NCBI GenBank assembly: GCA_021399445.1
Contig: JAJTUQ010000005.1
Span: 2,976,001-3,040,000 of the forward strand
DNA length: 64,000 bases
DNA from: Xylogone sp. PMI_703
Taxonomy: Eukaryota > Ascomycota > Leotiomycetes
Direction of reading: 5' to 3'
Position numbers and translations under genes: made by a program. Below, one piece after another: positions 47,341 to 64,000 of the stretch (position 1 is its first letter; each line of letters opens with the position of its first letter). A model generated the notes under the pieces. It saw only the letters and a list, made by a program, of their open reading frames with translations, did not search any database and was not told where the DNA came from.

Positions 47341-50300
47341 ATGCCGAAGTTCTCGAACCCTTTCAAATCGGAAGGAGGGAGTAGGAGGAAGAAAGCGGCA
47401 GTTACTCAGCCTAGGGTGGACACGTTCAACATCCCGCCCTCGAGGCGAAATACTGCTTCCGCTTCCGCAAATAGCCAAGGCACTCAACCTGTTCCGCCTG
47501 TGGAGGTGATCGCGCCTATACCTGCCGAATCTAAAAGTGGTGATCTGGGCACAACAGACAAGGAGCCTCGTAACCTGTGGCAGGAGGTTGTTGACAAACT
47601 CGGAGAGGAGAAGAGGAAAACCCTAGATCTTCGATTCGACAAGGATGGGAAAGTTTACCCTTTCGTGACTACCGTTATCGAGGGGGTCATTCAAGATGTT
47701 GAGGAAGCATGCGAGAAACACGCAAATGGCAGATGGAAGATCAAGCACCGTGACGGAAGGGTGATCGTTGATGTGCGTGAGAGTGCGAAGAACATCCTTC
47801 GTTGCGCACTACGGTCGAAGGCTATTATCGATGCCGGCGTCAAGTTTGACCCTACAGGCTATTGTACTTTCCCTCCTAATTTGACTTTGTCAATAATGCA
47901 ACTCATTTTAACGACCTACTAGCATCAATTGCATGGACCGTCATATCTGTGAGTCTTCAGGTATGTCCACCAAATTCCTTGACGACATTTCTTGGTTTTG
48001 ATACTAATGCCTGGTCCAGCTTGTGTAAAATGACCAAGACAGACTCGAGGACGTCTTTGGTGCATCGGCTTTGCTCGCCAACAGTTTGCATCGATATGCG
48101 AACATTGAAGCCAACTATCGCGACCAAAAGATAGCAGACGTCAGTCATTTAGAGGATAAGCTGACCTCCAGTTACGTGTCTATTCTGGACTACTCTGCTA
48201 AGGTCCACCAAGAACGAAAGAGGGGTTTTATAGGTAAAATATTGACGTCCGCAACAATATCTTCCAAGAATCCGTTAAGTCTGACATGGTTAGGGCGAGC
48301 CTGGAATAGCGTCTACTCCTTATCGGAGCAGCCATTGCAAAGACTGAAAGACAACATGAGTACTGCTGATAACGATACGGAGCATTGGCGATTGCTCATT
48401 GAACACGAATGTAAGAGGCTCTTGCTTTACATGTTTTCGTGGAAATATTGAACTGATCCGAAAACAGACCGGCTGAAGGAGTGGAAAGCCATAGACAGGA
48501 AGATAGACGAGACTTCGGCCAAGGTGGACCAGATCCTCGAGGATGTCAACACAAGCATGATGGCCATGAGCAACCGACTACTTGAAGCCATCTTTATCAA
48601 AGTGGCCACGAAAAAATGTCATGCAAATGTCTTCTCTCTTCCAGCAGCGCTTGGCAGAAGAGCTCGATCGGTCCACCCTATCTAAGGCCACTTTGGCTTC
48701 TAGCAAATCCCACAGGGAAGGTGAGACCATCCCTACCTAATCACTCAAACTTTGATCATGGCTAACCATATAGGACAAAGTTACAGCAGAGACAAATGGC
48801 TCGGCTATACCTAGTGAAGAGGAGCTGGATTGTTTAATTCGTGAGCTCTTTGTAGAATTCCGCGAATTCGACGAAGAATCTGAGCAATATCGAAAAACAA
48901 TTGAACAGCTACCCGAGATGCGCCCCCACAGAACTAGAAAGCACAACATTCTTCGGGTAGATGAAATTATGACATGGGTCGAGTCCGTTACTTCAAGAAT
49001 GCTTTTTATTGATGGTGGTCGAGTGCTAGGGAGGTACGATTTTAACTCTTTGTTTATTGTGCCCCTGCTCATTTTCGGGGATGAAGCCTTCGAATCAGTA
49101 TTCATATTGCGACATTTCTGTGGAGACAATCCTACGAGTAAGACGAACAACTATCGAGCCCTGGTTCAGGCGCTTATCATCCAGATCTTCAAGCAACGCC
49201 CTAAATCTTTCAGTCATAAGGTCGCGTCGCTCTCCCGGGAAAGGACATGCGATATATCTGACCTGTGGTCCTTGTTCCTCGAGAGCATCAGAGAAACAAA
49301 AGCCGATTGCGTCTTCATCATCATAGATAGTATTGATTATCTTCAAGATGCTCAAACACGGGATGGTATTAACGAAAAAGACATTGTGCTAAAGAACCTC
49401 GACGCCCTCGTCAAGGATAACTCAATGCTAATAAAGATCCTCCTCACCACGAAACTGAGCCACGGATCCCAAGTTCTGACAGAAGACCAAATGGGGCTCA
49501 TTGTGCCCTCGCACTTAGCCTCAAGTAAACCTAAGCGCAGGCTTTCTCTTGCCATTATGCAAGATGAAATGCTCTTGATACCCCAGAAACTTGTCGAGAT
49601 CCAAGAGAGGAGATGTCAACGCTTAACATTCGCACAACTTCCTCTCATATACTATCCAAACTCGACCATTTACACCGTAAATAATGACCAGCTTCAAGCA
49701 TTCATCATCTCAGGGCTCTCCGGGATGGAGCAAAAGTCGCCGAATGTGTACGAACCGCTTCACATTAGCGCTTGGTCAATTGGCCACGACGGCAAACGCC
49801 TCACTAAAGTTTATCATACCTTCCTAATACCTCAGTTCCGAGGGGAGAAAGCAGTCACAAACTTAAAGCATATCCCGTCGGGCTATCTAGAAGACGAGGC
49901 AGAGCATCGAAAGAAATTGGTTACAAGAGGACGAAAATATTGCGAGCTCGCAATTGGCTTTCATTATAAGCAAGTTTTGCAGAACATGGTATTGAATCTC
50001 CCAAATTACTCTCTAGGATTAAAGATCGTTTTAGTTAATCCTAGCCCGCCTTTGTCTTTTAGGAACCTGCTCGAGTCATCGTCGACCAAGAAGAGGCACC
50101 AAGTGAAATACGGGGTATGTATAAGTTCGACGGCGAGTTTGAAATCACTTCACACCAAGACCTGAAGCCTCGGGTATTAATGGCCTGCCCTCCAACCATT
50201 AGTGCTTATGTTCTGGAGGAAGGGAAGTGGAGTAAGTAACTTGCCCGTTCCAGGGACTACATAGCCAGTTTTATGACTTAAAAGTACACACGCTAACGGC

Positions 50301-51283
50301 TTAAAGCCAATGTTCTTGTCGATGAAGTGACTGATATCGAGTCCAAGCAGAACTTGGTGGATAATCTGGTTCGAGGTGAGGAAAAGGATGAGAAAGAAAT
50401 TGCTGAGACCTTGGTCCGGTCTCATCTATATAAAATGGACATGAATCAATACGACACGGGGATACCGTTCCAACAAGGTCTAAAGCCAAAAAGGCAAAGT
50501 CGCAAGGGGCTGGTTGTTCTTCTGCGCGGCAACAGTGGCGTTGGAAAAACATTCATGACCAAATGCTTAGCAGAGACCGTTCAGAGGCCACTGATATTAG
50601 ACACCATTGGATTCGGGGATGGCGATGCCGAGCGTAGACTGTCCGAGATGCTCCAACTAGCGGAAAAGTGGCGGGCTATCTTGGTCGTTAAGGACTCTGG
50701 CGGCTCTCTGTCTGCAAGATCCGTGGGCGACTCGAACACGGCAGTCACAACGGCCATGGGAGTAATGAATGCGTATTTAGGCGTTCTCTTCATCACAGCC
50801 AACAGCGGCATAATCTCGGATGAGGCTTTCTATTCTCGGATCGATTTCATCATTAACTACAAACCGTTGGAATTAAGTTCCCGCGTTGCCATCTGGGACT
50901 ACTTCATCGACAAGGCCGTGCAGGAGGACTTATATATTGATCGCTACGATATTGGCAGCTATGTGCGTAGTAGCGAGTTCTACAGCGACCGAAGCTTGTA
51001 CAATTTCGTAAACGGGCACGATATCCGCAACATCATGCTCGCGGCACAACAGCTCGCACAACAGCGCAACCAGACGATGTCGGGGGAGCATATCCATCTG
51101 ATTATGCAGAGCAGAGCCGAGATCTTCAAAGAAAGGGGATATAGAGGGATAAGTGAGATGAAGAAAATTGGCGCGGGAGAGAGGAGAGAAAATGGAGGGA
51201 GAGAGGGGTGGTGGGAGAGGGGGGATGTAGGAGAAGAACGAGGAAGAAGGGAGCGAGAGGATAGAGCCGCTATTTTCATTTAA
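47341..51283 (+). CDS. NACHT_N / STAND-like / DUF7025 / AAA+ fusion protein, interrupted
   Basis: Exons 47341-47863, 47923-47960, 48020-48410, 48468-48720, 48781-49988, 50063-50231 and 50307-51283 would encode about 1185 residues. Residues 65-330 fit the NACHT_N helical domain of fungal NLRs (NLWQEVVDKL, WKIKHRDGRVIVDVRES, FDPTGYSSIAWTVISVS). A coiled linker (AIDRKIDETSAKVDQILEDV) follows, then a STAND-like core without a Walker A (DEIMTWVESVTSRMLFIDGG, Walker-B-like CVFIIIDSIDYL). Next is a DUF7025-like domain (LIYYPNSTIYTV, YLEDEAEHRKKLVTRGRKY), then an AAA+ module: GNSGVGKT, KDSGGSL in place of DEAD, TANSGIISDEAFYSRID. Breaks: a TAA at 48026 in exon 3 and one extra A in the A6 run at 48611-48616; the second half is open. 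The tail is low-complexity Arg/Glu/Gly. NLR-type proteins sense non-self; a fused AAA+ is unusual. Confidence 0.7.
51174..51266 (+). repeat. purine (GA/GGA) low-complexity tract
   Basis: About 90 bp almost purely of A and G with irregular GAGA/GGGA units. It encodes the Arg/Glu/Gly tail of the AAA+ fusion protein and stops just before its TAA, so the C-terminus may be a recent slippage product rather than conserved sequence. Confidence 0.7.
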
Positions 51284-53656
51284 GGAACCTCTACATTATA
51301 ATAGTCCTTATAGAGGTATACTGACCGTTATATCGTTTTATAAATGTAATACGCTTAAGGTTATACTTTTAACTGTAGCACTAAATTAGGCTTCTTTTGC
51401 GATTTTAAATCTGCAATCGCCTCTTGAATTGAAGCTTCGTTGACTTTCATTCTGGTGGTTGCAGTAGTGGTCAGGGGTAAAAAGTGGGAAAGATGCCGGG
51501 AATACGAGTATGGTACTATCCATGAGCAAATATTATTCTGCATCTCTTATGCGGACTGAATTCCTTGCAGACCACATCATCGCCATGAACTCATTCCCCG
51601 GTGACTATTGAGCAGCATGGCCGGTGGACACTTGGAATCACTATCAATGGTAACCTTTAAAGAGTTAAGGAATGCGTCGGTGAAAGGAGATCTACATGAT
51701 CGTGTGCTATGTCCACGCTGGGACGGACTACTACGAAACGAAGAACTGGATCGAAAACGAAAAATATTAAATCAAAGCAAGCCGTTGTTCTCAAAGTCAG
51801 CTCAGTGGCTACCGTCAAGATGAATTATACCGACACATCTCCTCACCACCTTGATCAACGGCTGGAACCGCTTGATGGTCTTATCCAGGCCATTTCATGG
51901 TTTCTGATATATACCCTTCATAATACTGCTGTGGCTCTCTTTTACATACCTTGTTACCATATCCTGCCTATGGTTCTACGCCCGCGTGGCTAGGATTGGC
52001 CATGTACTCCTGGCTTCTCTTCATGATTGATGCTGCTCTAGTCAGGTGTAGTAGTGCTAGAGTGGAATGTCGAGTATGGCGTCCATAGGCCCGAGATTTG
52101 TAGCCTTCAGCCCTCTCGATTCTTCCGATTAGCACTATCCAAGAGACAGCTATCAATAGTGGCCGTCTTGCAGTGGTTGTTGTTTGGGTTACCAAAGCTT
52201 CTTATGCTTTAGTTCTCTCGAGTGGTTATGGACGATATCACTCCCATCCCGTCATTGCCATCTTCTAGCAAAGAATACTTTTAGCCAATAATGGCTAATC
52301 TAGCCTTATTTATTTTAAACTATTCAGTGGAATAGCATCCGAGGCTAGTTATGAATTTGAGAGAGGAATGTAACATCCTTGTCTACCTTTACTCTACCTG
52401 GGGATCGGACCGAAAGCTGACCTATGAAGTCATAAGAACGCTTCCAAGTGACTCGTGATAAAAAGGTAATAGCCTGCCATTTGAACACGAGGCCACAACC
52501 AGAATAGGCAGATAAATATCTTTACTTGTGAAGTCACCACCGAGTTAGACCCAGAGCCCCCGACCAACTTGTATCCCGAGCGAGGTTACTCCGCCTACGG
52601 CAGACCGAGAGCCGCTTCTACAGCCGCTTCAAAGGATAAGACTAGTGCCTACGTGAAATTAGGCGGATCGGATACGGCTTCCCCGGTGATATGTCAATGT
52701 AGCTTACGCGGAAAGTGTTGGTTCAGACTGGTTTGAGAAGCACGAGGATAGTAAGCTCATAACCACTCTTAGTCAACCAGCTAGGTTTTTCATAAGTTCA
52801 AGCCTCATACTAGAAAACATGCCATATAGATTTCTTATTAGAATAACAGAGACGTATACCTACTTGGTAGATGTCGAAGAACGGTAGAACTGCATCGTAC
52901 CTGAAGCAGTCAGAGCATTAATCTAAAATGGCTGCAGAACTACGAACCATTTCAAAGCGGCAATGGCTATTGCTACTTCCACAAGGCCTGTAGTCCCCAT
53001 CATTAATAAAAAGCATTCTGACATCAGCACTATTGGATGACTATTTGAGGTGGGGTGTTCTACAGAAGTGGGCTACTTAATGGGGCTGACAAGGTGTGTT
53101 AAGCCATGCGGTTTGTGAAATACTTCGCCCTCAAGGCCGACTCCGATCATTGTTTTGAATAATATTTGTATCATTTACACTTAACAGCCAACTGAGTTCA
53201 TTTCCATTCCATGACGAACATATTATTTGGAAAAGGTAAAAGACAGTCTTGGATAAGTAGCGTGTCTTTATACGTAATGAACTTCCACAAACCATAACCC
53301 GTTCCTAATCGTCAATAACCTAAGATTTAATTGAAAGAGAGAGCACAGTGGAATATCGCTCAGCGACGGCTAGGCAACTAGTTCGGCTTAGAAACCCATG
53401 TCATCTCGATAAAAGAATCGAAATTCAGTTGAACATACCATGCATCTTCGGCCCGGATGTCAACATCTGAGGTTAGGGACGGCAGGTGGTGTTCCTGTCA
53501 TCCTCAAAATGATTGTATTGTCTATAGAACGGACCGGCCAGCAAGCTAGCGACGATACGACTATATATAGGTGGTGTAAGTGATGTCTACAAAGATAAGC
53601 TCTGGGTTTTTCTATCAACTCCTATACTTTGTAAATTAATTTGTGTGGATCTGAAC
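51284..53656. other. long intergenic region with relics
   Basis: Apart from the transposase scrap at 51361-51450 no gene is supported. A stop-free 83-codon plus frame at about 52483-52737 without ATG reads like a protein tail (NLYPERGYSAYGRPRAAS, AYVKLGGSDTAS) and may be a stranded last exon. A TATATATAG at about 53562 serves the next gene. Confidence 0.35.
51361..51450 (-). mobile_element. N-terminal scrap of a pogo/Fot-type transposase
   Basis: Twenty-nine codons beginning MKVNEASIQEAIADLKSQKK then PNL before it breaks. The start matches the Psq-type helix-turn-helix entry of fungal DDE_1 (Fot1/pogo) transposases, in which a short acidic lead and an xxIQ-AI-DLKSQ-PN helix precede the DNA-binding turn. 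The following codons do not continue the domain and a TAA ends it, so only the tip remains. No terminal inverted repeats were found around it. Confidence 0.45.
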
Positions 53657-54893
53657 ATGTTACTGTCACAAGTACTCGTGTTGTCCGCCGCGCTGCTATC
53701 GTATGCAAGTTCAACTACATCCCCTACTTCCACTGTGTACCCTCTTTTGCCACCTCTTGGACCATCTACAGGTGTCTTTACCGTTGACCAGACACTCCCT
53801 TTTGACGGTCCTAAGCTTGACCACGTTAATGCCACTACCTCTGACTGGTGGTACTTTGATGCTGTATCAGACGATGGCTCGACTCAAATAACTATCGTGT
53901 TTTTCTCCGCAGAGGCGACTACATTGGGATTTCCCACCACGTTAGGCACATCTAACTTTGTTGTATTTACGGCCCTCTTCGATAATGGTACTATTTATCA
54001 AAACTTCATTCCTGGAGGCGACGCTACCATAATTACAATTGGTGATGGTTCCTCTGGGAATTTCAGTCTAACCGGCGGCACTTGGGCTGGTGCACCGGAT
54101 CTCTCATCTTATGAAGTAGAAGTGGATAATGCACTAGTGGGAATATCTGGTAGTATGAAGCTTAAATCTGTATGTATGGAGCAATTCTGTTACTGGTTTA
54201 GAACTGATATGCATTCAGATCGCTCCAGCCCATGTACCCTGCGATGGTAACTCGGCAGGTGCATCAGAGCATCTCACAGATACTATTGGCTGGGCAAATT
54301 CTGTTCCAGATGCTGATGCCGTTGTCAACTTCACCATCAATGGAGATCGTCTAAAATTCGCAGGTAGCGGATACCATGATAAGGTAAAATCTCCTCTTCT
54401 AACTTGAAAATGGCGGTATAAATTTTAAGACTCAGAGGGATATGCTAACAAGGGCCAGAACTGGGGGCTGAAGCCTCTTCCTGATGCTGTAGGAAGTTGG
54501 TACTGGGGTCATGCCCGCCTTGGACCGTACTCTATTGTCTATTTTGATGTTCTGCAGCGTGATAGTAGCGAAATTGTTAGTGCTTATCTCTCAAAAGAAG
54601 GCAAAGTAGTTAGTTTGGGTTGCTCCGGTCTGAAAGTCCGCCCCATTGGGACTGAGTTCCCTCCAACAGTGACAACACCAGTCCCAGAAGGCTTTACTTT
54701 GGAGTATCAGACTGAATCAGGCACACTGGTTGCAAATCTAACGGGGAGCACCGCTTGGGTTGCGCCTTTAGATCACCCAGGTTGGGGATATGATCGATTC
54801 TCAGGAGTCATTCAAGGTGGATTCAAAGGACAAGAACAATTCTCAGGGCCGGCTGTGTTCGAGTGGATTCGGTTCTTACCGTTGTCAGATTAA
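53657..54893 (+). CDS. secreted lipocalin-like protein of the Diels-Alderase/hydroxyneurosporene-synthase family
   Basis: Three exons (53657-54169, 54219-54383, 54459-54893) give 370 residues. The ATG at 53657 (not the upstream in-frame GTG) opens a signal peptide (about 19 residues ending SYASS). The family entry is LPFDGPKLDHVNATTSDWWY, followed by FDAVSDDG; further motifs are LKSIAPAHVPCDG, GSGYHDKNWGLKPLP, SWYWGHARLGPYSIVYFDV and a C-terminal beta barrel. This is the two-lipocalin fold of fungal pericyclases such as Fsa2/CghA (decalin Diels-Alderases), EupF-type hetero-Diels-Alderases and the related AsqI/CrtC proteins. The signal peptide is seen in several of them. No polyketide synthase or terpene cyclase is in the window, so the natural substrate is unknown; a hydratase or isomerase role is also possible. 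Confidence 0.82.
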
Positions 54894-55647
54894 ACTTTAG
54901 TTCTAGATCCTTACCTGACTATATACTCGGCCACTTTTAAGTTAAAGCTAGCCTCTTCCAAGTTACGCCTCAATAGAAGGGTAAGGTATTAGATGATCAG
55001 ACTATGCTGGGCAGCAAAGTATATAGAAGACTAAATTTGATATCCAGTTCAATACGCATAAAGCTCCAGTTATGTTACTTCTGACCTACGGCTTCAGCAT
55101 TACCCAATGATTGTGACTGCTCTCATAAACTGCAAGATATCTATCCAGACGACATCGGCCCCAACAACAACGTGCCTGAATATCTCTAAGACAATTAATT
55201 CACATAGTAAATCGATTCAGAAAGATTCGTTTTGTTGATTCGAGAGAGTCGGTCGATGACAAAATATGAGTCCAAATCATTTTCTTTTCTTCGGCGCCTC
55301 CAACCAGCTTTGGGACCACTAATAAAGATCCCGATGCCACTAACAGTAAAATCGCCTGAGTTCAAGCGGTACGATATGTGAGATAAATTCGTTCTAATCG
55401 AGAATAACATAACGTTCAAGGAACCTAAGCCAACTCCCAGTTTTACTCTTTGTCTGTAATAATAGCAGTAATGAGTCTTACTCCACTTCACGCTCTCAAG
55501 AGATAATGCAGGTGTCAAGCACTGTTGCTATTCCCTATTGAAATCTACAGTCTACATTTGCTAGTAGAGCTAGTTCAATGCTTGCAGCACTCACTACCTG
55601 GATTGAATTTGAATCTAATGGCAATCTACGTAATTTTATTGGGAGAA
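54894..55647. other. intergenic, nothing firm
   Basis: Convergent 3' flanks. A minus-strand frame at 55195-55518 has a protein-like middle (GDFTVSGIGIFISGPKAGW) but I recognise no family and no splice partners; it may be a relic. Confidence 0.35.
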
Positions 55648-57458
55648 CTAGTAGCCACGGCTGTCGCCATTTTGATGCACCAAACCATCTACATTCTCGA
55701 TCCCACTTGTTGGAGGACCTTGGTAATTCCTCCTACCCCAAATCCAGTACCATGCCGATGCGATAAATATAAAGCCTACAAAGACAGCACATGCATAGTT
55801 GACCGTCGAGGCAGTAACAGGGAGGTAGGTGGGCATACAGAAAAGAGGAATTGCAAGAATAGACCAGCCTAAAACGGTTAGATATACAAGAGTATTTGAG
55901 ATGATAATAGGAACATACATAAAGCAACAATGTTGCAGAAGATCCCTAACGGACCAAGATAGAAATTGCCAGCTTTCACTTGCGTTCGTCCACCTAATAG
56001 TGATATAGCAACTGGCATGGCGTAACTGATGGTGAGAAAGATAACACCTGCAGCAGAGAAGGCATTGAAGGCGGTGGCTGACCCAAAGTAGATAAGCCCA
56101 AGAAGGATTTGAACTGCCATACTTAGCATCATTGCATTGAGAGGTATATTGAGTGTGACGTTAACTATTCTCCACCACTGGGAGCCGGGAATCGCCCCAT
56201 CACGCGCAAAGGCCCATGTGCAGCGGGATGCGGCGGTTGTGCAACCTATCCCGCAAAGTATTGCAAGCACGATAAGAGGCAGCAAGAGACCAAAGGCACC
56301 TCCGGAGCTACCGACAGCCGATTTTAGGATCACGGGGACTGGCTGACCAGAGACAAGATTAATGAGTTCAGTCAGATCAGGGAGAACAACCACTAGTGGG
56401 ATAAGGAAGAATAGCCCAGCTAACGTATTGAGTATAACAGTCCCTACCATAGCTCTGGGTACTTGTGTCGACGGATATCTGACTTCTTCACACATACTAT
56501 TCATTATTGTGAGAAAGTTGAAGTAATATAAACAATGAGCGATGGGATACTTACGATATAATCATTCCTGTTGAGGATGTAGCATAGCCTGCGTGGAGGA
56601 GTCCAACGCAGAAGGCCCAGCCCGGGGTCCAGCCGGAAAGAGGCTCGAAGTGCCGAAAGACATAGTTACCAGAGTGTTTTCCGTTCTTTGCTATGGCCAA
56701 AATACAGACAACAATAGCGACTAAGCCCGAGAAAGTCCAGAATATTGCAAAAGTTTATAGGTACGTCAGCATATTAATCAATAGTGGCAAGAATGGAGGG
56801 GACTTATATCAAGTAACGGTAGCCATCGATTGCCCAATGATGAGACTAAATTACAGAGCAGAGTTATGGCGACGAAAATGAGATATTGCTGATAAGTCTT
56901 GGCATCAAAGATGCCGATGCCTGGTTCCGATTCAAAGACATTTATGCAGGCTATCAAAAATGAAGTTGTTCCAAAATTGACTGCTAATGTAATCAGGATA
57001 TTCCCGGCCACATAGGCCCAGCCACAAATCCATGATGCAAGTTTTCGCCATCTGATGGGCGACAGCATAAATGTTTGGAAGTAAACTCCGCCGGCTGTGG
57101 GATAAACGCTTGTAATCTCACCAAGAGATGCTGCCACACAAACAATAATGAAAGAGACGATGATCCAACCCCAGATTATCGTGACTGGGCCACCATTAAT
57201 TAGGGGATAAAATAAAGTGGTTGCTAGGCCATACGGAATGGATGCTAGGACGAAGGACATGAATGCCACCTGGAGGGTAGACCTGTTTCTGACAAGCTCG
57301 GATGCATAACCTGTCAACTCCTGAAGTTGGGTTGTGGCTATCATGTCTTGGTTTTCATCGTTGGAGGACCCGCTCTCGATGTTTACGCGTCTGTTGTTCG
57401 ACGAGCCTTTGCATTGATTGCTTTTCTTAACCCCCTGAAATTTGTCGAGCATATCCAT
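55648..57458 (-). CDS. amino-acid/choline permease (APC superfamily), first intron abnormal
   Basis: Exons 57458-56808, 56754-56555, 56496-55919 and 55868-55648 give about 549 residues. Family traits: a hydrophilic N-tail, LQELTGYASELVRNRSTLQV, then IPYGLATTLFYPLINGGPV, PTAGGVYFQTFMLSP, CEEVRYPSTQVPRAMVGTV, AASRCTWAFARDGAIPGS and NIPLNAMMLSMAVQILLGL, with about twelve helices and a conserved end PTYLPVTASTVNYACAVFVG. This is the fungal choline/GABA/amino-acid transporter branch. Introns 2 and 3 are normal. At intron 1 the coding strand reads GAT|ATAAGT where GTAAGT is expected and TATAA|ACT where TATAG is expected, so both splice signals appear lost by G-to-A changes. Unless an unusual splice is used, the transporter is truncated. 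Confidence 0.8.
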
Positions 57459-58430
57459 TGCAGTAAAAACGCATAGGTGTGTGCTCTTGGAGTGCTAGAA
57501 TCACCTATCGAACTGGGTAGCGAGCGAGGCTTATCTGATTTCAACTTGGAAGGTTCGATGATATTTTAGGTGACCAGGATAGTGGATTTCTTGTGTTTCG
57601 GACTGGCAACGAGAGTATTTGTAAATTGGATTTACGTGCTCGCTCGATCCTTGGTTTGAACACAGCTATGCTAAGATACCAAGACTGTCCCGTCTTGATA
57701 AAATATAACGCCAAGCACTTCATTTTGTGTTGTCACACTGCCTCAGTTAACCGACGCAAATTGTGATTTCAGTTGCACCTAAAGAGTAAAGCCCGCTTTA
57801 CTCAAACTAAGTGTAATTAGTAGCCTATGAACTTGTTCCTATGCTCATCAATTGTTTCGTTTGACGGTGCAACTAGCTCTATACGGCTCATTGTGGAGAA
57901 CACTATGTGGCGTCTTTTAGCGGAGGTACCTCGGCAGCGTATAATGTGGATTGCCAAGTAGCATCCGCACGATGAGTTCCCGGATCCAGTTGTCATGGCG
58001 AATAGTGAACCAGAAAGGAAAAACTAGTATCCTGTAAACGTAGGCCAAGATGTTAATCGTTACTAATAGCGCAACAAATAGGTCCACGAGTCGGATGAGC
58101 GGAATGAAGGGAATATGCTTAGTCAGATCTGGTAGTCATTCCAGATAAGAGCTTTTCAAATCATCATCCAATACACATTGTTGGCCTGTTCTTCCATCCA
58201 GGAGTTCAAGCCCAACATGCACGGGACAGTACTCTTCAAGACTACAAAGCCCAGGAGAGATTGCCCTATATTCGCGAACTGTTATATCCTCCAAGACCTG
58301 AATATCTCGTAATCCAGTTAAAATCTCTTAAGCTATGTCTCCTCTCGACTTGACCCTCCTTCTCTAATCCTCCAGCAAAATCTCTTTGCAAAACAAATCA
58401 AAATATTCACCTCACCAGACGGAATCTATG
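57459..58430. other. intergenic, nothing recognised
   Basis: Promoter side of the permease; many stops in all frames and no motif I can support. Confidence 0.45.
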
Positions 58431-58439
58431 AAAGCACGT

Positions 58440-58707
58440 TGGTAGCCGGGGTTATGAAGCGGAAAACTCAACGAAGCCTTTCTGGCCAACTGAACTATGA
58501 CCAGTAAATTGCAGTTGCCATAACTTAATAATGCCGATATTGTAATTATAAGCTCAAGAATGACGGCAGCAAGCCTACGTTGAACCCTTTATTCCAAGCA
58601 TCTTAACCACCGAATGATTGTCCTCGAAGCCCGCGATCTCTGTTCAGGGGCCACAGGATGGAACAGAGACTACATTAAGAATAGACTTCTTGTAACCCTA
58701 GAGTAAC
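58440..58707 (+). pseudogene. relic of a DAO-type FAD-dependent oxidoreductase
   Basis: Three frames together show the N-terminal landmarks of fungal FAD-dependent amino-acid-oxidase-like proteins: NSTKPFW at 58465, then ADIVIISSRMTAASL at about 58532 in place of the usual dinucleotide motif GSGITGAS, and IVLEARDLCSGATGWNRD at about 58620. TAA and TGA stops and frame changes separate them, the FAD-binding glycines are already lost, and nothing downstream continues the protein. It is a short truncated pseudogene next to the 3' end of the STAND-like gene. Confidence 0.7.
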
Positions 58708-58934
58708 GCAATATCTCTGCGCAATTATCTGTTGTAAAGGCTTCTCAAGGAATTCCTGGAAGCTACTTCAGTAACATATTCCCATATCGTTCGAATATCG
58801 AGCCGCGCGGTTCGACTCCCCAGCTGTCTTCTAAGTACTTCCGCCCGACGACAATGAATGACTGGGATGAGATCGTACTATTGATAGATCTACTCAGAGA
58901 GCTTATTCTTCTGGTCATTTCCTCATCAGAGTTT

Positions 58935-61019
58935 TCAGCCGCCTCTCTTTCGTCGCTTGACACTTATCTGAAGTAAAGCTTCCTCCAAGAGCTGGCCGGC
59001 GTTGAGGTCCCATCGCAGTGCATCAAAACACGGTCTCTTGTCATCCACATGCTCCGGCAATTGAATGGTATCATCTACTGCCATCTTCTCCTTGTTCAAC
59101 CATCTGGCATACGGGTCAATGATCGGGCAGGTTATTAGCACCTTGAATACCGCAACAGTCTTCAGCTGGGCCTTAAGAAGCTGAACAATGGCCTCACAAG
59201 TCTCAGCCACCAGGTGAGGCTCACTGGGAGAGAGTGAAACATCGAGCACACAAAAGAGGCCAACACTTGAAGGTAATTGGTTAACGAGCTTTCGGAACGA
59301 CTTGCAGAGACGTTTTAAATTCTGCGACCAGGAGGCGAGGTCTGTTTCGTTCAAAAAATCTAAGCTCAGAGCCTCATATTTGGTAAGTATTTGACCGATG
59401 AAAGTCTGAAGAATTTGGACTGCGCTTCGGATATAATTGCCTGTGAATTCTCGATCATTTGAGTTGCAGAAATAATGAACGGTATAAATGGATGCAATGG
59501 GTTCTAAAGATTTAAGAAGTCGAATGCAGTTCGATGCAAGTGGCGAGGTTTCTAGATGGCTACAGTTCCCGTTAACAAGTAATGTTTGAGACTTCGCGGA
59601 GGTGAGCCATTCCCGTAGTTTCGCTGACCTCATGAACCAGGCGGCTCGATCCTGGTCAAGAGGAGATTGGACTTCCTCAGAGGGAACATTCGTTTGGACC
59701 TCTAAGAAGCTCAATAGCTGTCCCTTTGTGAAATCTACGTTTTCGTTAGCAGAATTATATAGAATGGTTTCATCTATAACTTTGAGGCCTACTGGAATTG
59801 AATATTGCGTCACCAAGGCGTGCTATGATAGGTCAGCGTGTAAAGGATATGCTACGGAGTCTCTTACATTCTTGTCTCCCACTTAGCCTTGGATCATCCT
59901 CAAATAGCGTGGTGATGTGAGTTAAAATCGTAGGATCGGCAACGTCCCAAGCCTTCTTATTCCCATATTGAATAAGCTCTGCAAGTACATTTCATATAAG
60001 TATTTATATGGCAACTTGACTTCTATGGCATGAATACTGACGATATACCATGCGTTCTTTTAATTCTTCTATTCCCTCTGCCGCCCCAAGTTGGACCTCA
60101 TCCTTAATCAGATTTACGAACTTCGATACCTTTGTTGTCCGCTGTTTAAGTGCATCTCCGTAACTAGATTGTGAAATTATAGGTTTGAAAATTCGCTCTG
60201 CAAGCAATTAGTTTCTGTTTCAATGTACTAAAAAGGTCTTTCTGACTTGGTAGTTTCTCGTTAAGCCATAAGAGAATATAATATAGCACATCTATGACAG
60301 CGATGTAAAGGTCGGAGGCAAGCTCCTTCAATCGCAAGGACTTTTGTGCTTTGACTGCTCTTCCGGCGCTATCCATCCGTTGCGGAATGTCCTCGAGGGC
60401 ATCAAATATGTCGTCCCGAACCCCGTTCATCGTAGCAACTGCCTTTCAGGAGTCAGAGCTATGCAGAACAAATGGTCAAGGTGTGACATACTCCAATGAT
60501 CAACTTGATTCCTCCACATATCACCGAGGCATACTCCGACTGCGATGGAAGAAGTGCCATCCAGCCATCAAGAGGTGGTGCAGTTGTTCCTGTCTTCTTG
60601 GCGAGCTTTCGGAAGCATCTGCGCATTAAACCCCATCGGCCTTCTGGGTTCTCGTAATTTTCCTTAGCCCATTCCACCATTGCAATGACTTCCTCCCACG
60701 TGTTCTGGCTCTGGAAGTCCAGGCTGAGAGGGTTATGCTTCGGATCGACTTGCGTCTGCCATTTGATCATGGCTGCACGGAATTCGTCGCTCCTTTCTTT
60801 TACATCTTCATAGAGGTAAGAACTACCATAATGTCAGTTAAGTGCCCAGCTACAGGAGTATTGGGAAACCTACGACGGGTCTGTCTTCAGCTGCTCTTGA
60901 AACCGCTTGAAGTTGGCGTTAACTTGTTGTGCCTCAGCGACTACAGCGTGTTCAAAGTCTGCGACCGGATTAGATACTTGGATAGTAGTAGAGCGAGACA
61001 ATCGCCCTATAGTCCCCAT
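58935..61019 (-). CDS. DUF7708 / STAND-like protein without a P-loop
   Basis: Exons 61019-60874, 60822-60492, 60442-60229, 60197-60042, 59978-59868 and 59791-58935 give 604 residues. The first 300 residues fit the DUF7708 helical domain of fungal NLR-like proteins (FEHAVVAEAQQVNANFKRFQ, TWEEVIAMVEWAKENYEN, LPSQSEYASVICGGIKLIIG, DDIFDALEDIPQRM). The second half is a STAND-NTPase-like core in which the usual GxxxxGK[ST] has decayed to LLVNGNCSHLETS and a Walker-B-like strand reads GLFCVLDVSL; ASIYTVHYFCNSND matches the strand-2 motif of these proteins. The chain ends with a basic KRRKRGG. Intron 3 as I place it is only 31 nt, below the normal fungal minimum, so a frameshift there is possible. 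It is head-to-head with the DUF7025-AAA+ gene; the two domain sets appear fused in the gene at 47.3-51.3 kb. Confidence 0.75.
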
Positions 61020-61382
61020 TGTCCTTTGTATACCGGTATATCATTACGAAGCTAAGGTTGAGGTGGGGTGTAACAGTTGGGGCTCGGCTCGTCCCGTCAA
61101 TGTTGACCTTTCGTGTAGCGGGATAACCTATTCCGGAGCTCCGCTCTGTCAAGGAAGACGAGGCTCGCGGGGTTACCTTCATCGACAGCAGCTGTGCCCA
61201 TGTCACTACTTATATTATCTTTAACGCTACACAGTATTCAGTGCTTCAATTTCAGCGGATCGTCATTGATCCCGTCGTCCATTGCAGCTGAGAAGTCCTG
61301 ACTGCAGCCCAAGAAACTTTTCACCGAAAGCCGACAGTCTCTTCTAAGCTCCGATCACCTTGTTACATCAAGCTACATCAAG
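61020..61382. promoter_or_regulatory. 363-bp shared promoter of the STAND-like and AAA+ genes
   Basis: The ATGs of the two divergent genes are 363 bp apart with no other gene between. The right part is CT-rich (61290-61370) as in fungal core promoters. The short distance makes joint regulation likely. No palindromic operator is obvious. Confidence 0.5.
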
Positions 61383-64000
61383 ATGGCTAATTTGAGCCGT
61401 GACCCTGTGTTTGCTGCAGCTGAGCTTGTCACCAATATCGAGGCTAGAGAAGATACTGAGGACAGTGAGGACTCTTCATCATCCGAGAAATCCAAAGACC
61501 TCAACAGTCGTACTAAACATGCTCCTCGCATGCTTAAACAAATGTCCGCCTATATGCAGCTCATGGAAGAGAGAATACAGTCATTAGAACGACAGATTCG
61601 GTCGCTCGAGGGATATGAGGAAGATCAAAAAATACCTTCTCAAAAGAAACCTCATCGCAAACCAAATGCCTTGGTTACCGCTGTTCATAGAGTAGAGGGA
61701 CTTCATTTCGATTCATTGGAGAGAACTAACGTTATTGATGTCTTATATGAGCCTCTTCAAGATACGAAAATCGATGGGGACGATCCGGAGCTTCGACTCT
61801 GGGACCTGGAGGGCCGTATGCCAGGACGGGTCAGAATAAATTCGCCAGTCATCTTGAAAATGTTAGAGGTTATAGCATCTCCCCACTTTACCTCCCAACG
61901 CACAGTAATTCCAAGGCCCTTTAAGATCCTTTGCATACACCAGGATCGTATCAGAAAGTACCTGGATGGGCTAGATTCTCCTGATAGAGCTCATATTCGA
62001 TGTCTCATAGAGGTTCTTGACACTGACCTGTCATTTCTGAAGAACATCAAGAATGGAAAACTAGAGGAGATAGCATTTCAGGATCTTTGGCATCTTTTCC
62101 AGCCCGGCGATATAATTTTCAACAACACATCTAAGTCTGATAAGGAAGCCCACATGGTTATGAGTACTGGGATTCGGGTGGGTGTTTGGAGTGAACTCCT
62201 GATTTATCCTCTCGATAGCCTTGCGATATTATCCGGAGACAATCTTTCAAGCCTCCCAGACAAACTCCATCGGGCTGCTGCTGACTCTTCTATTATCTAG
62301 GACTCTGTTGCCAACAACTCGTCACACTTTGTTATTGATTGCTTTCATTATGACTACGATGGACAGGGCTTTGGGCCCATTCAAACGAGCATTGAGATAC
62401 CAGCATATGAGGGTAATCGTGAGATCCAGTCTCTCCCGGTCCTACCAAGTCAATTCCTCCCGGATGTCCACAGCAGACGTGACTATCTTAAAGAAAGAGG
62501 CCTCCGGTTTGTGAAAGTCACAAATTCGCATAGCATCTCTCACTTCTATTACTCAGGCGCCACATTGGGGAAATTCAAAGTTGAGGTACGGCCGATGATT
62601 CTCTCATCCCATATACACCAGTTCTAAATATATCTTCCAGCTGGACGGACAAGTCATTATCGACTTCCAGGCTGCATATCAAACGCTGCAGCATGACTTA
62701 CCGACTATAGGATTGAGTGTGAATTTAGACTACCACACTATGGCGTCCAAGAATTCCTACTACTGCAACTCGGAGAGCTGTATCATTTGCAAGTACCTTG
62801 ACAGGGACAACGTCTACGATCTTCAACGAAGAAACACGATGATATCGGAATTCAAGCCCCCATTAACCCAAACACTCCAGAAGAACGACCTACAAGAGTT
62901 ACAGTGCATTCTTCTCCCGTATAGAGTGTATGGTTTTACTCTCTGGACCAGAAAATGGTGTAAGTTCCACCTTCGTAGTGAAGATATCCGCGCTAGACAG
63001 AAAATGTGGCTCTCGTTTCCATGTCCTAAGTCAAGTTAAATTTTCAATTTTCAAAAACTAGACTTGATAAGGCAAAGAGTAGAAATACCCGTAGACTTTC
63101 AGTACATTCAGGAGCTTAATTTTACTGCAAATGGCGAAATGGATATTTCAGATGCGTCAACATCGCTCGAGAATAATAGGGATTGATGCTACTTTTCTAC
63201 CCATGTTGAGATAACTTTAAATATCACTGACATCCTTGATATATAGATTCTCTTCATATCGACTTACTATATCCTGTTAAGGCCTCCTCGGACGGCTTCG
63301 AGGACCTTGTACTGCCTGGAGGGCACAAAAGTATCATCATGTCTATGATTAACATGCATTCCCGTCCGTCTAGTGGTCGAAGACCTGGGTTCGCCAGCAG
63401 TGATACAGACGAGGCTTCTACAGAAACAGACTTGATCAAGGGCAAATGTGAGAATGCTCTCTTAAATCCCAATTCAAGCGCTGAAATATACAAGCTCAAG
63501 GTCTCATTATGCTGTTGCATGGTGCTCCTGGTGTCGGTAAAACATCAACAGCTGGTATGAATCCCAAACTATGAGGAATTTGATGAGTTACTAATGTCAC
63601 AATCCAGAATGCGCTGCAGCGGCGACTGGTAGACCTCTCATGTATCTAACAGCCGGTAAGTGCCTCTTCTATTCCGAATCGAGTCCGCGGTGGACATAGA
63701 AGTAGCACTGCTTTTGATGTCCCAAATTCCCTTTCGGGTTCTTTCTTCTCAATCTGTATTGTATCTCCGTTTGAACAATTTCCTGGTATATCAGAACTCA
63801 TTCCCCTGTCGAGTTTAAAGTTTATCTTCCGGATACTTGACTTGCCTTGGGACGAATTTAGCATCACCCTTTTCTACCCAAAAATTCAGCAATATAGGAC
63901 TAGTCTAACTATAGAACAGCGGATCTAGGGCTAACGAGCGCGGAAATGGAAGCTAATCTTGAGATAACTTTCTCTCTTGCTCACAAATGGGGATGCATTC
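61383..64000 (+). CDS. DUF7025 / AAA+ ATPase, cut by the window edge
   Basis: Exons 61383-62177, 62301-62585, 62641-62959, 63247-63447, 63495-63554, 63608-63655 and 63920 to the edge stay in one frame. After an acidic N-part and a coiled coil (LMEERIQSLERQIRSLE) comes the DUF7025 region: RVRINSPVILKMLEVIA, RPFKILCIHQDRIRKYLDGL, FQDLWHLFQPGDIIF, FVIDCFHYDYDGQGFGPIQ, YLKERGLRF, LLPYRVYGFTLWTRKW and FEDLVLPGGHKSII. The AAA+ module then starts with GLIMLLHGAPGVGKTSTA, a good Walker A, and runs to the window end just before the expected Walker B. Proteins of this type are large fungal AAA+ ATPases with an AAA lid domain; their cellular role is largely unknown. Introns 3 and 6 are unusually long (287 and 264 nt). 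No break is visible in the part present. Confidence 0.8.

Follow-up and report, generated by a model that had tools for sequence, protein, structure and literature searches.

Do a STAND-like protein (signal transduction ATPases with numerous domains) that lacks a nucleotide-binding loop and an AAA+ ATPase encoded beside it, or in the same chain, work together? The question was raised by a 64,000-nucleotide stretch of the fungus Xylogone sp. PMI_703 (contig JAJTUQ010000005.1, here C21:2976001-3040000), referred to below as the window. According to a preliminary description of this DNA, one gene combines an N-terminal domain of the type found in NLRs (nucleotide-binding domain and leucine-rich repeat proteins), a STAND-like core, DUF7025 and an AAA+ domain, and two head-to-head genes further along divide the same parts between them; the halves were proposed to cooperate. 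We found the observation to be confirmed in part and its interpretation to be partly supported. The arrangement recurs beyond the window: in the genome (50.1 Mb, 25 contigs), whose fungal Pfam families and short introns indicate a filamentous fungus, a core of the same P-loop-less class was found at 8 of 16 DUF7025 loci. The recurrent pairing suggests an undescribed two-part system whose halves act together. All linkage counts given here come from this one genome.

The features of the fused gene, in window coordinates, are as follows.

47341-51283, plus strand: fused gene, with a DUF7708-like N-terminal region, a P-loop-less NPHP3_N core, DUF7025 and AAA (splice model and domain scans)
47341-47863, 47923-47960, 48020-48410, 48468-48601, 48645-48720, 48781-50114, 50168-50231 and 50307-51283, plus strand: exons of the fused gene model
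48948-49451, plus strand: STAND core, NPHP3_N-like, without a Walker A motif, with LFIDGGRVLGRYDF at the expected P-loop place (Pfam and alignment)
49605-49889, plus strand: DUF7025, in a common frame with the STAND core (PF22942, E 1.9e-18, 67 bits)
50528-50551, plus strand: Walker A of the AAA domain, GNSGVGKT (sequence)
50678-50698, plus strand: Walker B position of the AAA domain, ILVVKDS where most relatives have ILLLDEA (sequence)

The features of the split pair are the following.

58936-61019, minus strand: split partner gene, with DUF7708 and a P-loop-less NPHP3_N core (Pfam; fully open six-exon model)
61019-60874, 60822-60492, 60442-60247, 60197-60049, 59976-59868 and 59791-58936, minus strand: exons of the split partner model
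60124-60554, minus strand: DUF7708 of the partner, approximate genomic extent with introns (30.7 bits, cut-off 25)
59238-59642, minus strand: NPHP3_N-like core of the partner, without a Walker A motif (LLVNGNCSHLETSP; 30.2 bits, cut-off 24.8)
61020-61382, no strand: interval of 363 bp between the divergent start codons at 61019 (minus) and 61383 (plus)
61383-64000, plus strand: split AAA gene, continuing past the window to about 65093 (sequence and Pfam)
62052-62462, plus strand: DUF7025 of the split AAA gene, interrupted at 62178-62300 (27.8 and 58.3 bits on either side of a TAG at 62298-62300)
63521-63544, plus strand: GAPGVGKT, the Walker A motif of the split AAA gene, on an exon preceded by an inferred short intron (sequence)

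In the fused gene, a single stop-free frame of 463 codons (48774-50165) holds both the NPHP3_N core (PF24883, E 6.9e-9) and DUF7025 by Pfam, and the long frame that comes after it (50297-51283) gives an AAA match (PF00004, 22.2 bits against a cut-off of 21.2), AAA_lid_13 remaining under its cut-off (20.8 bits against 27). The DUF7025-AAA similarity that the idea of a fusion presupposes was therefore found, at 67 and 22.2 bits, and both window cores are homologous to STAND domains (NPHP3_N, 36.5 bits in the fused and 30.2 in the split gene; cut-off 24.8). The N-terminal domain had been named NACHT_N, which was ruled out: NACHT_N (PF17100) gave no match in the scanned frames and models of the window, where none of the genome's 18 rows lies. 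The domain is DUF7708-like instead, above the cut-off in the split partner and below it, at 16.1 bits, in the fused gene; the profile searches thus recovered DUF7025 (above cut-off in both window genes), AAA and the split DUF7708, and neither NACHT_N nor a fused DUF7708 at its cut-off.

The split genes are head-to-head as first described, the AAA gene ending at about 65093 rather than at 64000. DUF7708 and NPHP3_N lie in the minus-strand gene, downstream of which all same-strand frames as far as 57500 have at most 72 codons. The plus-strand gene encodes, in order, an N-terminal region, DUF7025, AAA, AAA_lid_13 (69.2 bits, beyond the window end) and a low-complexity tail; its AAA exons were assessed by motif alone, and the TAG at 62298-62300 fits the end of a predicted intron (62178-62300). 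The order of parts is that of the fused gene save for one stretch: about 220 codons precede DUF7025 in the split AAA gene and about 50 separate the NPHP3_N match from DUF7025 in the fused gene, so that this stretch is absent from the fusion. A coiled-coil-like segment, judged by eye, lies ahead of DUF7025 in two linked AAA proteins (window 61383-61680 and L016:5037-7469), where it includes the pattern LME(E/D)R(I/V)Q.LER; among the frames of more than 90 codons, 416 of 1097, the pattern occurs in just these two proteins.

Searches for DUF7025 across the genome gave 18 profile rows, or 16 loci after two split matches were merged. At the eight loci with a pair-class core, that is, a P-loop-less core of the kind seen in the window, the arrangement is head-to-head in six, same-strand in one and fused in one. 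The divergent pairs are the window pair and those at C20:5.03, C1:8.74, C22:0.39, C20:0.83 and C21:2.77 Mb; in the same-strand pair, at C19:0.79 Mb, about 0.9 kb lies between the partner frame and the first long frame of the AAA gene. Core and DUF7025 are 2.5-4.9 kb apart in seven cases and share a frame once. Used as a query, the window's split partner core found four other places (C20:5.03, C1:8.74, C22:0.39 and C19:0.79 Mb), each 3.1-4.9 kb from DUF7025, and searches with DUF7708 (8 rows) and NPHP3_N (at least 124 rows) added C20:0.83 and C21:2.77 Mb, again beside DUF7025. Three split cores used in this way recovered 4, 4 and 5 non-self places, all at DUF7025 loci; the second and third queries led to no loci beyond those already known, the third query also finding the fused core (E 2.9e-4). 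Intervals of 5.5 kb on either side of all 16 DUF7025 loci make up 0.35% of the genome and contain all four places found by the first query, while divergence of six of the seven split pairs has a probability of 0.0013 at one in four; both figures are too strong because the pairs share descent. Within this genome the pairing of core and DUF7025 is far from random, and the random association that would have spoken against the preliminary description was not seen.

We then asked what distinguishes the paired cores. The Walker A motif, [AGS]x4GK[ST], is absent from the expected place in all eight, the two window cores included, and the reading frames are uninterrupted there, which bears out the earlier statement that the STAND half has no nucleotide-binding loop. 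The motif is present in 23 of 24 ordinary NPHP3_N cores, a set of the 20 top-scoring rows and four others that leans to the canonical, and is split by an inferred intron in the remaining one. Eight further, lower-scoring NPHP3_N places comprised three with the motif, two in which it is split or degraded, two without it and one partial place that was not judged. P-loop loss was rejected as diagnostic of the pair class, since two other genes also lack the motif: related P-loop-less NPHP3_N-like cores were observed at C1:5073698-5074180 (plus strand) and C21:4970471-4970959 (minus strand), each within one frame (1422 and 1405 codons) and with no adjoining DUF7025. The eight paired cores group together (support 83/88 and 87/85 in two core trees), apart from these two genes and from a PNP_UDP_1-associated core described below, although several rows are long-branched. 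A search of the Protein Data Bank (PDB) with the STAND-core profile gave no match at E up to 0.1.

The frame of each of the seven split partners stops 40-80 residues past the core, where a winged-helix domain (HETHS/ARC2) would follow in an NLR, and no C-terminal repeats (ANK, TPR, WD) were recognised downstream; among same-strand frames of at least 60 codons within 0.9 kb, the three largest (105 and 77 codons at C19, 96 at C22) were scanned and had no Pfam repeat match, the others having at most 74 codons. In the fused gene DUF7025-AAA sits where the repeats would be. DUF7708 shares a frame with a P-loop core at L028 and lies beside P-loop NPHP3_N cores at L026 and L027, which identifies it as an NLR-type N-terminal domain. 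As the partners have neither a P-loop nor recognisable repeats, "NLR" here denotes resemblance and not membership.

Evidence that the two halves were inherited together came from phylogeny. Five pairs are grouped as a clade by their cores (95/95 and 95/94), and the same five by their DUF7025+AAA sequences (96/93, in a larger tree built from short motif segments picked by pattern from the frames, some rows missing segments). Across the seven split pairs, the distances of the two halves correlate at r 0.92, a value reached by 100 of 5040 permutations. The preliminary description had taken the fused gene for the joined form of a split-type pair, which was not supported: its core falls outside the five-pair clade, as does its AAA half, on a very long branch, so the gene represents a divergent lineage and not a fusion of the window's own split pair. 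Its junction frame has its best DUF7025 matches at C10:52 kb and C20:120 kb, two loci without partners, and as a genome query it found three DUF7025 places and an ordinary P-loop core at C10:142 kb.

The flanks read at the other eight DUF7025 loci (L011, L013-L015, L017 and L022-L024 with L051-L055; uneven lengths, frames of at least 60 codons) yielded no pair-class core, bar one weak case at C20:2.05 Mb, which overturned the notion that all of these loci are solo. At this ninth locus (L023:7500-9733, minus strand; C20, about 2.053-2.055 Mb), a PNP_UDP_1 frame (51.2 bits) precedes an NPHP3_N-like frame without a P-loop (21.5 bits, under the cut-off), placed tail-to-tail with the DUF7025-AAA gene. 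In the DUF7025+AAA tree, the row of this locus branches as sister to the five clustered pairs (91/89). The core found here does not fall in the pair-class group and, as a query, recovers itself alone in the genome, and was for these reasons tallied separately from the eight. At another locus without a pair-class partner, a 798-codon frame (L015:4776-7169, plus strand; C20, about 204-207 kb) is divergent from the DUF7025-AAA gene; inspection by eye suggests hydrophobic segments in it, and Pfam gave no match for it at E 0.01.

The AAA half has kept its P-loop in all 16 DUF7025-AAA copies. P-loop and DEAD occur together in six of the eight linked copies; in two of these six (C21:2.77 and C20:0.83 Mb) an inferred intron splits the P-loop. 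At what we take to be the Walker B position, the fused copy has KDS and the window's split copy TEAD where the six other linked copies have DEAD; neither window copy shows the hhhhDE form of an active AAA+ ATPase. The supply of ATP-driven remodelling by this half, as first proposed, is thus not supported for the two window copies, although P-loop and DEAD have been retained in the six others. The combination seen in the fused copy, Walker A present and the Walker B acids lost, would suit an assembly that stays bound to ATP, or could reflect decay. Five linked copies carry a serine after GKT (GKTST), found in none of the 11 others, and these five form a clade in the DUF7025+AAA tree (96/93). 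For the DUF7025 region, a profile search of the PDB gave two doubtful matches, the bacterioferritin 9viw_A (E 8.5e-4, 21.5 bits) and the putative acetyltransferase 7dqg_A (E 0.16); the fused AAA frame had no PDB match at E up to 0.01. By tblastn against plasmids, the fused AAA frame matched 129 records, every one below 60% identity, and those among the matches listed are named AAA family ATPase or ATP-binding protein, apart from one that is unannotated.

These findings suggested a model, which we favour at somewhat less than even confidence, in which the pair is a dedicated two-part module: a dead STAND core derived from an NLR, and a DUF7025-AAA+ ATPase that would replace the lost nucleotide switch. 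The first part would be an NLR-derived protein made of DUF7708 and a STAND core unable to bind ATP through a P-loop, with no recognisable repeats; the second would be a DUF7025-AAA+ ATPase inherited with it, mostly as a divergent neighbour and once in one chain. With the usual ATP-dependent switch unavailable to the STAND core and no repeats recognised in it, we propose an adaptor role for this core. In the single complex that both parts may form, this adaptor would tether DUF7708 to the AAA+ assembly. The switching and oligomerising that fall to the STAND core in an ordinary NLR would be carried out by the AAA+ part as it binds or hydrolyses ATP, ATP binding gathering the DUF7708 domains. Physical contact, ring formation, the adaptor role and a part in non-self recognition or regulated cell death are what we infer from sequence. 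A more specific version of the model is a bipartite fungal NLR whose switch has moved to the DUF7025-AAA+ partner, with a dead STAND adaptor, swappable N-termini (DUF7708, perhaps PNP_UDP_1) and halves joined once or more; we consider it possible, with less confidence than the dedicated module itself.

Several observations weigh against the dedicated module. The model of the fused gene, a 1177-residue chain in eight exons, contains an in-frame TAA at 48026-48028, avoidable by a weaker predicted acceptor at 48049 in place of 48019. Its AAA domain is without both presumed Walker B acids and the window's split copy is without one; the split copy also has TTD for TTN (Asn to Asp) at what is presumably the sensor-1 position. 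AlphaFold2 on three window sequences yielded no usable structure, at a pLDDT of 32. P-loop loss was seen in two of the eight low-scoring NPHP3_N places, one 43 kb from DUF7025 and the other on a contig arm with none near, and the C10:142 kb P-loop core matched by the fused frame (E 2.4e-4) has its nearest DUF7025 at a distance of 90 kb. DUF7025-AAA occurs alone too, at seven loci whose flanks, as far as examined, contain no partner. The distance correlation drops to 0.37 with the fused row (8330 of 40320 permutations as high) and is -0.04 within the five close pairs (66 of 120). A single clade of all eight AAA halves was neither shown nor rejected (p-AU 0.065), and the tree of DUF7025 alone leaves the pairs unresolved, with no starred branch. 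Finally, the pairs are partly co-duplicates and do not count as eight independent events.

One alternative is an allorecognition receptor/effector pair like het-S/nwd2, in which one gene would be the sensor and the other the executioner, their linkage ensuring joint inheritance; the AAA+ protein would act as receptor or guardee and the DUF7708 protein as killer, or the two roles would be exchanged. Fungal STAND genes adjoin effector genes in variable orientation (PMC3321046, accessible part) and cell-death pathways often form clusters of two or three genes (PMC12881547, in part), which fits the pairs, as does the PNP_UDP_1 carried instead of DUF7708 at the C20:2.05 Mb locus, this domain being named among NLR N-terminal domains in the accessible portion of PMC9815663. 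Against it, no repeat domain for sensing was recognised; nor do the termini of the window pair, the one pair compared, share a 21-residue amyloid-like motif above shuffles (18 to 52 of 60 as high). We regard this alternative as unlikely.

Less likely again, the halves may be linked cargo, an old divergent pair that was co-duplicated and is kept together by shared descent and a bidirectional promoter, with no joint function. The presence of the same five pairs as a clade on both sides is what this would predict, and the same-strand C19 pair and the seven partnerless DUF7025 loci indicate that the two genes do not strictly depend on linkage. However, identity of the partner cores to the first row of their alignment is 13-28%, so the duplications are old, and yet the neighbours were kept together in 8 of 8 cases. 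One split pair is in the other orientation, one lineage is a single chain and three split-core queries found no class member away from DUF7025; these points argue against linked cargo. It is improbable that the window copies are decaying pseudogenes from an ordinary gene family of fungi and that the fused gene arose by a chance in-frame join. In favour of decay, the fused model has an in-frame TAA and a very long branch, and Walker B is damaged in both window AAA copies. Against it, all six exons of the split partner model are fully open, the 463-codon frame is kept across the fused junction, both stops can be spliced out, the motifs are kept in six other linked AAA copies, and decay leaves the genome-wide linkage unexplained.

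The region separating the fused gene from the split pair contains, at 53528-54890 (plus strand), frames matching DA_N (Diels-Alderase N-terminal, 54 bits) and AsqO_C (142 bits), adjoined by an amino acid permease at 55881-57494 (minus strand).

If the two-part module is a working unit, the jobs of an NLR, namely effector domain, ATP switch and sensing, would be divided between two genes, and the function of a dead STAND domain could be approached in a tractable case. DUF7025 and DUF7708, both unnamed in the literature searched from 2023 on, would also gain a first functional context. No description of a fungal NLR paired with an AAA protein was found in the titles and abstract openings among the matches listed, most subscription papers lying outside the search. 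A fungal NLR catalogue requires, in its accessible part, a nucleotide-binding domain with C-terminal repeats (PMC12258605), so that a P-loop-less, repeat-less protein beside an AAA+ gene would be missed by that rule. Non-canonical P-loop variants have already been reported among fungal NLR candidates (PMC4986451, in part).

How does the arrangement compare with known systems? With fungal NLR and STAND proteins bearing DUF7708 or NPHP3_N, the pair-class proteins share the N-terminal family and a recognisable NPHP3_N core, including the hydrophobic-Asp strand, whose aspartate is invariant in the alignment. They differ in that Walker A is absent, that no repeat domain was recognised after the core of any of the seven split partners, and that DUF7025-AAA lies alongside or in the chain. 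Pairs of the het-S/nwd2 type likewise consist of two adjacent genes, often divergent, whose orientation can change (PMC3321046, accessible part); here, in contrast, the partner is an AAA+ ATPase and not a HeLo-type effector, no terminal motif is shared (one pair) and the STAND half is P-loop-less. Head-to-head sensor/helper NLR pairs of plants resemble the present ones in their divergent genes and short shared interval, although both plant partners are NLRs, and such NLR-NLR pairs are rare in Sordariales, at 13 of 225 two-NLR clusters (both from the accessible part of PMC12258605). Closest to the AAA half are the partnerless fungal ATPases of the DUF7025-AAA-AAA_lid_13 type, which have the same domain order and P-loop, the five GKTST copies being set apart from them by that serine.

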